A stretch of 35,606 bases of DNA from Bdellovibrio sp. CG22_combo_CG10-13_8_21_14_all_39_27 (lineage in GTDB: Bacteria; Bdellovibrionota; Bacteriovoracia; Bacteriovoracales; Bacteriovoracaceae). The notes beneath the pieces are model-generated. The model searched no databases, was not told the origin of the DNA, and worked only from the letters and a program-made list of their open reading frames with translations. The stretch's first letter is position 1. The number at the start of each line of letters is the position of its first letter. Shown piece after piece: positions 2,965 through 6,566 of the stretch. Location of the stretch: positions 1-35,606 of the forward strand of contig PCTW01000068.1 in the NCBI GenBank assembly GCA_002786715.1, read 5' to 3'. Position numbers and translations under genes: made by a program.

Positions 2965-3174
2965 TTATTTCAGAGGCTTAGGAGTGGGATTTGAGACTGA
3001 ATCCTCGACAGTGTTTAGGGAATCGACATTTATCAGCTTTTTTAAACTCAAAATTCGCTCCATCAAATCATCGGCCATATCGCTTTCATAGAACCCTTGC
3101 TTCATCAATTGCGCCATTGATTGCAAGGAAACAAGGATATTGGAGATGTCATGTTGATTATTGCTCAAGTGCAT
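2965..3174 (-). CDS. Small protein resembling a stand-alone histidine-kinase phosphoacceptor (DHp) helix
   Basis: About 69 residues from the ATG at 3174; GGGGG lies five bases before it. A second in-frame ATG at 3186 would add four residues. The N-terminal half, NNQHDISNILVSLQSMAQLM, has the His-Asp/Glu-x-x-Asn pattern of a histidine-kinase H-box. It closely resembles the H-box of the kinase encoded at 5247-6566 (SHDIANPLTAIQNRIELM). No ATPase domain follows; a second helix (DDLMERILSLKKLINV) and a short tail complete the protein. The start overlaps the end of the sigma-54 activator gene by 17 bases, so the two are translationally coupled. This suggests a phosphotransfer partner or inhibitor for that regulator. 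Function is inferred; chance similarity in a short helix is possible. Confidence 0.6.
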   Translation of the reverse strand: MHLSNNQHDISNILVSLQSMAQLMKQGFYESDMADDLMERILSLKKLINVDSLNTVEDSVSNPTPKPLK

Positions 3175-4537
3175 TTGAACCCCCATCTACCATTTCTTGA
3201 ACTCGATAAAAAACTGACTTGCTGATTTGAAGTCGTCTCACAATTTCATTTAAGCGATTGCCATACTCATGACGAGCTTCAAGCAAAGCTTCTTTTTCAA
3301 TTTCATTGATAAGCTTTGGAAGACCATAAGTTTTTATATAATCGCGCATTCTGCCCGACATAAAAGAAGAGGTTAGATCTTCTTTAACTTCGAAAATATT
3401 TGTATTGGTGCAAATATGCTGTGGCAATTGATCAGGTGTAATCATGCCAACAGTTGTACTTCGAAGTTCAGTGATCAGATCTTTTAATTCACGAATATTG
3501 CCATGCCAATCATAAGTTTCGAGTAGTCGGAGAGTCTCTTTTGAAAAAGCAATTTTACGAGGTCCTTGAGCTGCAAAAAAATCAACCAGAGGTAAAATAT
3601 CTTCTCTTCGACTTTTGAGTCCTGGAATTTCAATTTCAATGCCTTTGATTCGAAAATAAAAATCGAGACGCATTTCTTTATTTTGTATTTTCTCAATGAG
3701 ATTTTCACAAGTAGCAGTAATGAGTCTAAAATGAGTATGAATTCGTTCCTGTCCGCCAATTGGAGTAAAGGTTTTCTCTTCAATCACTTTGAGTAGTTTG
3801 GCTTGTAGATGACTTGGGACAGCCCCAATTTCATCTAAAAACAAAGTCCCCCCATTAACCTGTTGGAGAATTCCCACTTTGTCTTGAGTCGCTCCCGTGA
3901 ATGACCCTTTTTTATGTCCAAACAGAATGGACTCGATAAGATTTTCTGGGAATTCACTTAAGTTGACCGACATAAAAGGACCAGAGGTCTTGGAAAAGTT
4001 GTGCAAAAATGAAGCGAGTTGAGTCTTACCAATGCCGGTTGGACCAGTTATTAGTATTTTTTGATCAGTGTTACGAGCCTGAGTTGCGAGAAATTTAATC
4101 TTTGAACGAAGCATTTCATCTTGAGTTAAAAATTGCTGATTAAAAAAGTGATCAAGCGCAGAGTGACTCAAGCTTTCAACAATAGGGCCCATGTACTCAT
4201 GAACGCGGTCAAGAAAATCGCTTTTGGTAAAATAGTGATGGCATCCAGCCTCATAGGCTTGGGTGATAACTTCTTTTGAATTATGTCCGGTTAGGATAAC
4301 CGTCATGATATTTTTCTCGAGACAGTGCTTGAGAAATTGCAGTCCGGTCAGCTCATCTTCGTTTTCGAGATTGAGATCGATAAGGGCCAATTGAATGGGC
4401 TGTTCACTAATCAATTGCTTCGCTAGTTCTAGGTTGGCCGCTTGATGAACCTTTCCGTAGCGCTTCATTTCTTGGCCTAAATTGATTCTAAAATAGCGAT
4501 CGTCTTCAAGCAGGAGAATATGTTGATTGTTTTCCAT
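3158..4537 (-). CDS. NtrC-family sigma-54-dependent response regulator
   Basis: The 459-residue protein has three parts. The receiver domain (1-120) shows acidic pocket residues E11, D12 and D13, phosphoacceptor D54 (LALIDLN), T83 and K105. The AAA+ domain carries Walker A GPTGIGKT (165-172), the sigma-54 contact loop GSFTGA (211-216; GAFTGA is usual), and Walker B GGTLFLDEIG with D235-E236. A short C-terminal helix-turn-helix lies near 425-450 (NEIVRRLQISKSVFYRVQEM). It would bind enhancer DNA and remodel sigma-54 RNA polymerase when activated. The Ala-to-Ser change in the loop is a known variation but can weaken activation. No full kinase gene sits in the same operon, only the small DHp-like gene that overlaps its end. 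A good sigma-70 promoter precedes it at 4570-4598. Confidence 0.95.
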   Translation of the reverse strand: MENNQHILLLEDDRYFRINLGQEMKRYGKVHQAANLELAKQLISEQPIQLALIDLNLENEDELTGLQFLKHCLEKNIMTVILTGHNSKEVITQAYEAGCHHYFTKSDFLDRVHEYMGPIVESLSHSALDHFFNQQFLTQDEMLRSKIKFLATQARNTDQKILITGPTGIGKTQLASFLHNFSKTSGPFMSVNLSEFPENLIESILFGHKKGSFTGATQDKVGILQQVNGGTLFLDEIGAVPSHLQAKLLKVIEEKTFTPIGGQERIHTHFRLITATCENLIEKIQNKEMRLDFYFRIKGIEIEIPGLKSRREDILPLVDFFAAQGPRKIAFSKETLRLLETYDWHGNIRELKDLITELRSTTVGMITPDQLPQHICTNTNIFEVKEDLTSSFMSGRMRDYIKTYGLPKLINEIEKEALLEARHEYGNRLNEIVRRLQISKSVFYRVQEMVDGGSNALEQ

Positions 4538-4671: not shown

Positions 4672-5250
4672 ATGATTACTTTGTACGGCTCAACCACTTC
4701 TCCTTATGTTCGTCGCTTTCGTCTTCTATTGAATAAAGCGCCTTATCAATTTGAAAAAATTAATCTCGCTGACCTTAATGATCGCGAGAAACTAAAAACT
4801 TTATCGCCTTTATTGAAAATTCCTCTGATCACAGATGAAGGGACAAAAATTTGGGACTCTCGCCAAATTTTTCGATACTTGCAAGAAAAAGGAATGCATC
4901 AAAATACCAATTGGGATCAAGAGAACCTGCTCACGGCGATAGACGGTATCAGTGATTCACTTATTCAATTGTACTTAGTCGAGAGAAGTGGCACGACCAT
5001 GGATCGCAAGAATACATATGGAAAGGCAAATCTCGATCGCATTGATTTGAGTTCAGAGTTTTTGGATCAAGCGGTATCTCAAAATAAGTTTAACCAATGG
5101 AATTATCTCTCGATAAGTCTTTACTGCTTGATCGATTGGGCAAACTTTAGAGAGCGATATGATTTTAAAAAATATCAAAACCTATGGAGTTGGTATTTGG
5201 AAAATGCACATAACGATGGAATTAAAGAAACGGATCCTCGAAATTCTTAA
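4672..5250 (+). CDS. Glutathione S-transferase-like protein
   Basis: The 192-residue protein begins with a thioredoxin-like GST N-terminal domain: MITLYGSTTSPYVRRFRLLL, then KIPLITDEG (containing the cis-Pro that contacts glutathione) and the DSRQIFRYL helix (about 65-73). The C-terminal half is helical, with conserved-looking SLYCLIDWANFR near residues 150-162. An in-frame TTG at 4660 lies upstream, but GGAGG at 4662-4666 places the start at the ATG 4672. Bacterial GSTs conjugate or reduce electrophiles, and some are stress-response proteins without catalysis. It is divergent from the sigma-54 activator, and its last four bases overlap the end of the convergent histidine kinase gene. Confidence 0.85.
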   Translation: MITLYGSTTSPYVRRFRLLLNKAPYQFEKINLADLNDREKLKTLSPLLKIPLITDEGTKIWDSRQIFRYLQEKGMHQNTNWDQENLLTAIDGISDSLIQLYLVERSGTTMDRKNTYGKANLDRIDLSSEFLDQAVSQNKFNQWNYLSISLYCLIDWANFRERYDFKKYQNLWSWYLENAHNDGIKETDPRNS

Positions 5251-6566
5251 GCGGCTTCATGGTCATTTACTTTTTGAGCCTCGTTAGCGAGGAATTCAAT
5301 ATCAAATTGAGTTCCTCCTCCTATCGCATTATAGACATTAATATGGGCTTCAAATCTATCGAGGAACATTTTCATAATGGGCATGCCAAGTCCTGTTCCC
5401 TTTTCTCCTTTTGAACCAATACGCGTTGTTGGTTTAGTCGGCGAAAATAAATAAGGAATTATTTCTTCAGGAATACCAAAGCCATGATCCCTGATGCTGA
5501 AGAGCACTCTCTCTCCTCTGCGTTTGATATCAAGTTCAATCACTCCGTTAGGATGTGAGAACTTAATCGCATTAGTCAAAAGATTATTAAGAACAGAGAG
5601 ATGAAGTGAAACTTCATCTCCTTTAATCCATATGCTTTCATCAATATTGAAATTTTTTCTAATGCGGATACCTTTGTCTTTAATTTTTATTTCCAATGAT
5701 TCAAGCGATTCAAGAATGGTTTTTGTTAAATCGACGGGCTTTAAGATAATTTGAAGCTTACCACTTTCGATCGCTCTATAATTTCGAACAGAGTCAATGG
5801 CCAAGTGCATTTTTTTAATCTGCTCTAGGATTTTACCCGTTTGATCATTGGCACCGGTTTTTTTGATCATTAATTCAATACGATTTTGAATAGCAGTTAG
5901 GGGATTGGCAATATCGTGACTTACAATATTGAGAAGAGCTGAATTTGTTTCTTTCTGCTCAAAAATATTCTTGTACTGTTGATCCATTTGTTGCTGATAT
6001 TGGGACTCTTCTGTGGTGATTCTGTTCGTAATCGCAAACGCCGAAATTCCCGTAGCGATTATAATTCCAATATTATACTGCAAGATCTCTGCATTTTTAA
6101 AACCTTCTTTAATGATTGGAAAAAAATAAGGAAGTGTTTCAGCTATAATCATAAGAATAATACAAATAACGCCCAGTCTTAAACCATTTTTTTTCCCTAG
6201 AAGATAGTTACTCGAAATGATAATGAGGGGGGCCCATAAGAGATTGCTCCCGAGTCCAAGAGGAGCGATGAGATGTTGCGAGGAAATAACAAACTGGCAT
6301 GTTATGACAAAACCATAAACGCTAATCTTATACTTGCCGGTTGTTTTAAAATGAAATGTCCAAAAGATAAATGAGGCAAGGGCAATCAGGTCCAACTTTG
6401 CCGCGAGAGTTTTACCCGTTAGAAAATTAACAACGGTAAAAATCATTAAGGGGACAATGGTAATATGAAGAAAAGTTACAAAGAGTCTACCATATTTAAT
6501 ATGGTAGAAGTCATTGTCACGTACGAGGGCCTTGGCAGGCATAAAAAAATTAATCATAAAATTCAT
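5247..6566 (-). CDS. Membrane-bound sensor histidine kinase
   Basis: The 439-residue protein has an N-terminal bundle of about six hydrophobic segments (roughly 27-50, 58-72, 80-100, 107-123, 128-150 and 163-180). A short coiled-coil linker (184-208) follows. The DHp domain has phosphoacceptor H217 in SHDIANPLTAIQ. The ATPase domain has an N-box near 327-338 (NNLLTNAIKFS), a G1 box DHGFGIP (360-366) and a G2 box GTGLGM (390-395). There is no large periplasmic domain, so the sensor is probably the membrane bundle itself. No response regulator is adjacent in the same operon. The sigma-54 regulator and the small DHp-like protein 2 kb away are candidate partners, as its H-box resembles the latter. 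No strong ribosome-binding site precedes the first ATG; ATGs at codons 4 and 9 are alternatives. Confidence 0.92.
   Translation of the reverse strand: MNFMINFFMPAKALVRDNDFYHIKYGRLFVTFLHITIVPLMIFTVVNFLTGKTLAAKLDLIALASFIFWTFHFKTTGKYKISVYGFVITCQFVISSQHLIAPLGLGSNLLWAPLIIISSNYLLGKKNGLRLGVICIILMIIAETLPYFFPIIKEGFKNAEILQYNIGIIIATGISAFAITNRITTEESQYQQQMDQQYKNIFEQKETNSALLNIVSHDIANPLTAIQNRIELMIKKTGANDQTGKILEQIKKMHLAIDSVRNYRAIESGKLQIILKPVDLTKTILESLESLEIKIKDKGIRIRKNFNIDESIWIKGDEVSLHLSVLNNLLTNAIKFSHPNGVIELDIKRRGERVLFSIRDHGFGIPEEIIPYLFSPTKPTTRIGSKGEKGTGLGMPIMKMFLDRFEAHINVYNAIGGGTQFDIEFLANEAQKVNDHEAA

Follow-up and report, generated by a model that had tools for sequence, protein, structure and literature searches.

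A small gene on a 35,606-nucleotide contig of Bdellovibrio sp. CG22_combo_CG10-13_8_21_14_all_39_27 (PCTW01000068.1; the whole contig is referred to here as the window) encodes a protein that, judged by its sequence, is the phosphoacceptor (DHp) domain of a histidine kinase without an ATPase domain or a remnant of one. The gene (positions 3174 to 2965, minus strand) overlaps the 3' end of a gene for a sigma-54 activator that carries a receiver domain. We propose that the protein is a minimal dimeric phosphotransferase, similar in role to Spo0B and ChpT, that relays phosphate from the receiver of a hybrid kinase to the receiver of the activator, and we put the probability of this reading at roughly 60%. 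A broader proposal, for which we see about even odds, is that minimal phosphotransferases of a hitherto undescribed class occur in the Bdellovibrionota: DHp hairpins with nothing added, 46-97 residues long, that are co-translated with a receiver-bearing sigma-54 activator and serve as the middle histidine of hybrid-kinase phosphorelays, driven in some species by a modified-peptide signalling operon.

The small protein and its relationship to kinase DHp domains

The small gene is a real open reading frame (ORF) on the minus strand. Its stop codon lies at 2967-2965, and initiation at the ATG at 3174 gives 69 amino acids; a second in-frame ATG at 3186 would give 73. From the 3174 start, the overlap with the activator gene is 17 nucleotides (3158 to 3174) because the activator stop codon ends at 3158. 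A GGGGG run (3180 to 3184, minus strand), 5 nucleotides upstream of the 3174 ATG, is a possible ribosome-binding site, and the overlap suggests that translation of the two genes is coupled. The plus strand at 2965-3174 is interrupted by stop codons. The protein contains HDISNILVSLQSMAQLM, and its candidate phosphoacceptor is His8, in HDISN. A first-pass annotation, made from the letters of the window and giving no strand, had described an H-box ORF that overlaps the activator by 17 bases and lacks an ATPase domain. Both descriptions were correct; the 69-residue protein has neither a HATPase_c catalytic domain nor a remnant of one.

Homologues of the small protein were found through the activator. 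Searches with the single window sequence turned up no convincing homologue (the best value per genome was 0.012), and one weak match was directly behind an orthologue of the activator (G005:C50). For 30 orthologous activator loci we read the 3' flank, and 17 of them are followed by short ORFs with the pattern H-[DEQ]-x-x-x-x-[LIVT]. From these 17 ORFs, none of them a kinase, we built a profile (A1). At E<=0.01, A1 had matches in 82 of the 129 genomes of the taxonomic family of the window, true kinases included, and by our reading at least 63 genomes had one in a reading frame shorter than 100 amino acids; these and the genus counts depend on the threshold and on a fragmented genome collection.

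The small proteins are homologous to kinase DHp domains, because the kinase-free profile recovers kinase phosphoacceptor sites and because a direct profile comparison gives a high probability. We searched 369 genomes across the phylum with A1, and all 16 of the long-frame matches that were read carried the motif H-[DE]-x-x-[SNT]-P and had histidine aligned on histidine; those frames printed in full run on into an ATPase domain. We also aligned the family, using hhalign, with the DHp segments of 30 kinases from the genome of the window that were picked by Pfam HisKA. The probability was 96.5% (score 45.1, E 8.6e-10 for one comparison), again with His on His. Among 200 column-shuffled controls the maximum probability was 2.5% and the maximum score 13.2, and the reversed control gave 1.1%. 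The segment after H+10 alone gave no match to the kinases (6.6%), and the evidence for homology therefore comes mainly from the first, H-box helix. Matches of individual members to curated models were weak: HisKA in 5 of the 17 (Pfam, best 3.9e-4) and ChpT in 2 of the 17 (NCBIfam, best 5.5e-4). The window protein itself had an HWE_HK match of 0.11 (Pfam), below the cut-off, and a sequence search of the PDB returned weak matches only (bacteriophytochrome, 0.065; ChpT, 2.0). Such ORFs are likely to be missed in annotation because they are too short and too divergent for curated models.

Structure predictions are consistent with a hairpin. The AlphaFold2 monomer model of a Halobacteriovorax homologue is a two-helix hairpin (pLDDT 93.4), and the window protein, which has a poorly conserved tail, is also modelled as a hairpin (pLDDT 68.8). 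Histidine kinases were among the top Foldseek matches, which we do not take as proof since no E-value was significant and any helical hairpin finds such matches. Two hairpins may dimerise into a four-helix bundle.

Conservation of the activator and small protein pair

The activator of the window (459 amino acids, 3158 to 4537, minus strand) has the parts expected of a receiver-bearing sigma-54 activator: a receiver with D54, T83 and K105 (Pfam Response_reg, 7.6e-11), an AAA+ domain with Walker A and GSFTGA motifs (Sigma54_activat, 2.3e-52) and a C-terminal HTH-like region. We propose that it is the phosphate acceptor. In the bacterial family of the window, 39 small ORFs of 46-97 amino acids, spread over 19 genera, are linked to such an activator. 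Most of them start 1-38 nucleotides inside the activator gene and overlap its stop codon, and all end after the hairpin, with no ATPase-like C-terminal domain. The linked activators retain receiver D12, phospho-Asp D54 and Lys K105 in 39 of 39 cases.

The histidine at the phosphoacceptor position is invariant (39/39) in the linked ORFs, though identity drops to about 20%. The residue at H+1 is D in 34, E in four and Q in one; H+4 is more variable (S in 21, N in nine, A in five, G in three and K in one). The frame is under coding constraint, with dN/dS of 0.03-0.19 in close pairs outside the overlap. Based on this conservation and on the shuffled controls, we reject the possibility, raised with the first annotation, that the H-box resemblance is due to chance. 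Outside the family of the window, an NtrC-like activator (L163) is also paired with a DHp-only ORF, with an overlap of 4 nucleotides.

A proposed phosphorelay role and its alternatives

Hybrid kinases are encoded close to the pair in several relatives. At six loci (L202, L205, L206, L207, L210 and L212) a kinase is present in the neighbourhood, mostly in the same gene run, and each consists of a DHp-ATPase core followed by one or two receiver-like domains. Pfam recognised the receiver at L202 (1.4e-10) and, weakly, that at L210; those at L212, L206, L207 and L205 were recognised by comparison with the L202 receiver (3.7e-9 to 5.5e-21). Together, a linked hybrid kinase, the DHp-only protein and the activator contain all four sites of a His-Asp-His-Asp series, and a receiver-ending kinase, a stand-alone histidine protein and a receiver-bearing activator are the components of which a multistep phosphorelay is made. 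The middle histidine protein of such a relay may be an HPt protein or a pseudo-kinase (PMC9981736). Similar hybrid kinases that are not linked to a pair are present in G020, G029, two genomes of genus g3 and the genome of the window, which has three, each with a single receiver.

We infer the phosphotransfer, its direction and the donor kinase in this organism from these arrangements. Two copies of the hairpin would pair to form a four-helix bundle as in the kinase core, each exposing its His8. Since the small protein has no ATPase domain, it should be unable to phosphorylate itself; the receiver of a hybrid kinase would donate phosphate to His8, from which it would pass to Asp54 in the product of the adjacent upstream gene, the activator, and the phosphorylated activator would then turn on sigma-54-dependent transcription. 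The first-pass annotation had suggested, as one possibility, a free-standing phosphotransfer module comparable to Spo0B, and this is the best-supported reading given the orthologues, the coding constraint and the invariant histidine.

By the features compared, the small protein is not a member of the HPt, Spo0B or ChpT families, and it would work in a Spo0B-like manner. Its likeness to Spo0B is in the role, a histidine shuttle between two receivers, and the H-boxes of both lack the HisKA proline. Spo0B has a further C-terminal domain, whereas the small family is a hairpin only (46-97 amino acids) and is tied to sigma-54 activators; no Spo0B-type match was found by Pfam among the 17 members. 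HPt domains (PF01627) are likewise small histidine phosphocarriers in relays, but they form a four-helix bundle within one chain, whereas the modelled homologue of the window protein has two main helices, and none of the 17 matched Pfam Hpt. The small proteins differ from HisKA (PF00512) kinases, to which they are homologous by profile with His on the phosphoacceptor His, in having no ATPase or sensor domain. The four-helix bundle of Spo0B is built of hairpins from two subunits, and ChpT is a dimeric phosphotransferase of DHp type that acts between a response regulator and a hybrid kinase and retains an H-box proline, Pro38, as well as a degenerate ATPase-like domain at its C terminus (PMC3433190). 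The small proteins resemble ChpT in DHp type, as in the two weak NCBIfam matches, and differ from it in lacking both the ATPase-like tail and the proline.

Our searches of open-licence literature found no published DHp-only protein. If the relay reading is correct, this would be, to our knowledge, the smallest dimeric histidine phosphotransferase, and the window protein would be an extreme relay histidine protein, a hairpin and nothing else. The family represents a kinase phosphoacceptor domain that is an independent gene, conserved over many genera of relatives of predatory bacteria, and offers a natural test case for what a bare DHp hairpin can do. In these lineages, where signalling has been little studied, it would also connect sigma-54 activators with hybrid kinases that are not linked to them.

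Several observations weigh against a relay through a DHp-type protein. The window protein has no Pfam HisKA match up to E=1 and does not reach the gathering score, and the proline found at H+5 of usual H-boxes is absent from the small proteins. No hybrid kinase is linked to the pair in the window or to the pairs at a group of loci that we call type B (L135-L148), and the best hybrid kinases of the window genome cover only the DHp, the ATPase domain and the first receiver of the query. Classical HPt domains are present in the same genomes as well. Finally, some members may function otherwise, because relatives in two genera are coupled to a FAA-hydrolase-like gene and not to a regulator.

The membrane kinase encoded near the small gene is probably not a special partner of it. 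This histidine kinase (5247 to 6566, minus strand; HisKA and HATPase_c by Pfam, with no receiver domain found by Pfam) lies 2 kb away, and the first annotation had noted the likeness of the two H-boxes. The likeness is real, at 8 of 17 residues; the pairing is not special, because other kinases match equally and the closest relatives have no such neighbour next to the activator/DHp-only pair. Among the 30 HisKA kinases of the window genome, one shares 9 of the 17 residues and one more shares 8.

We considered three other roles for the small protein. It could be a phosphatase or brake that binds the activator receiver and strips or drains phosphate from it, with no forward relay link. Kinase DHp domains have phosphatase activity, usually with the pattern D/ExxN/T; the window member keeps HDxxN, and it is common for a pair to have no linked kinase. 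However, only 9 of the 39 linked ORFs have N at H+4, where N or T is needed, the histidine that a phosphatase does not strictly need is invariant, and several relatives encode receiver-bearing hybrid kinases in the cluster that holds the pair. We consider this role unlikely. We give still less weight to a decoy or adaptor, also suggested in the first annotation, that would tune signalling by forming mixed dimers with the DHp of a full kinase or by blocking the activator receiver. In favour of such a role are the clear homology with the DHp domains of kinases and the presence of a kinase gene 2 kb from the pair. Against it, the closest relatives do not keep that kinase beside the pair, other kinases of the genome resemble the small protein just as closely in the H-box, a pure decoy would need no invariant histidine, and the co-encoding of receiver-bearing hybrid kinases in relatives makes a relay the likelier role. 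Least probable of all is a split kinase, in which another kinase would use its ATPase domain to phosphorylate the histidine directly in trans, with no receiver as donor. The D at H+1, which serves kinase autophosphorylation, is kept in 34 of 39 members, as such an arrangement might predict; the co-encoded kinases, however, are complete, with their own DHp domains and receivers, and fit a relay better.

Gene neighbourhoods of the pair and of related ORFs

Three of the clusters with a linked hybrid kinase look like modified-peptide signalling systems. The clusters at L205:3387-9736, L206:7875-15858 and L207:4959-11931 encode the activator, the DHp-only protein, a short secreted-looking peptide (83-108 amino acids) and the hybrid kinase, together with solute-binding-like lipoproteins (SBP_bac_5 in L206, 1.4e-15). 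The L205 cluster includes a YcaO protein (L205:5310-6311, 3.9e-12), and L207 has in its place a protein that is radical-SAM-like by eye.

The presence of a DHp-only ORF was clustered on a tree of 30 activators. One clade (96/96 support; L013, L014, L017, L018, L019, L022, L025, L026, L030 and L034) has no DHp-only ORF and has another gene downstream, encoding a protein of 101-119 amino acids with the motif TGIQxTRVFRIxNG, about 40-60 bp from the activator. At several of these loci it is followed by a protein of about 155-160 amino acids. At the type-B loci the genes that surround the pair follow a constant order: a rimO-like gene, a large lipoprotein, the activator, the DHp-only protein, an exported protein of about 270 amino acids, an epmA-like gene and others (names assigned by eye).

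Related H-box ORFs are also found apart from the activator. In genera g25 and g5 (L100, L103, L109-L113, L115, L117, L118, L120-L122, L125, L126 and L133), the FAA-hydrolase-like gene (MDKIICLGKNYAEH..., identified by eye) is overlapped at its 3' end by ORFs of a second subfamily (SHDILNxxERLRIMHDL...). In genus g33 (L098, L114, L123 and L124), H-box ORFs (KIKHDIKNALFRIESI...) have no preceding activator and overlap the start of a conserved gene of about 195 amino acids. Stand-alone H-box ORFs are also present in other families of the phylum (L162, L163 and L164), and the one at L162 is beside a gene for a CheY-like receiver and near an NtrC-like gene.
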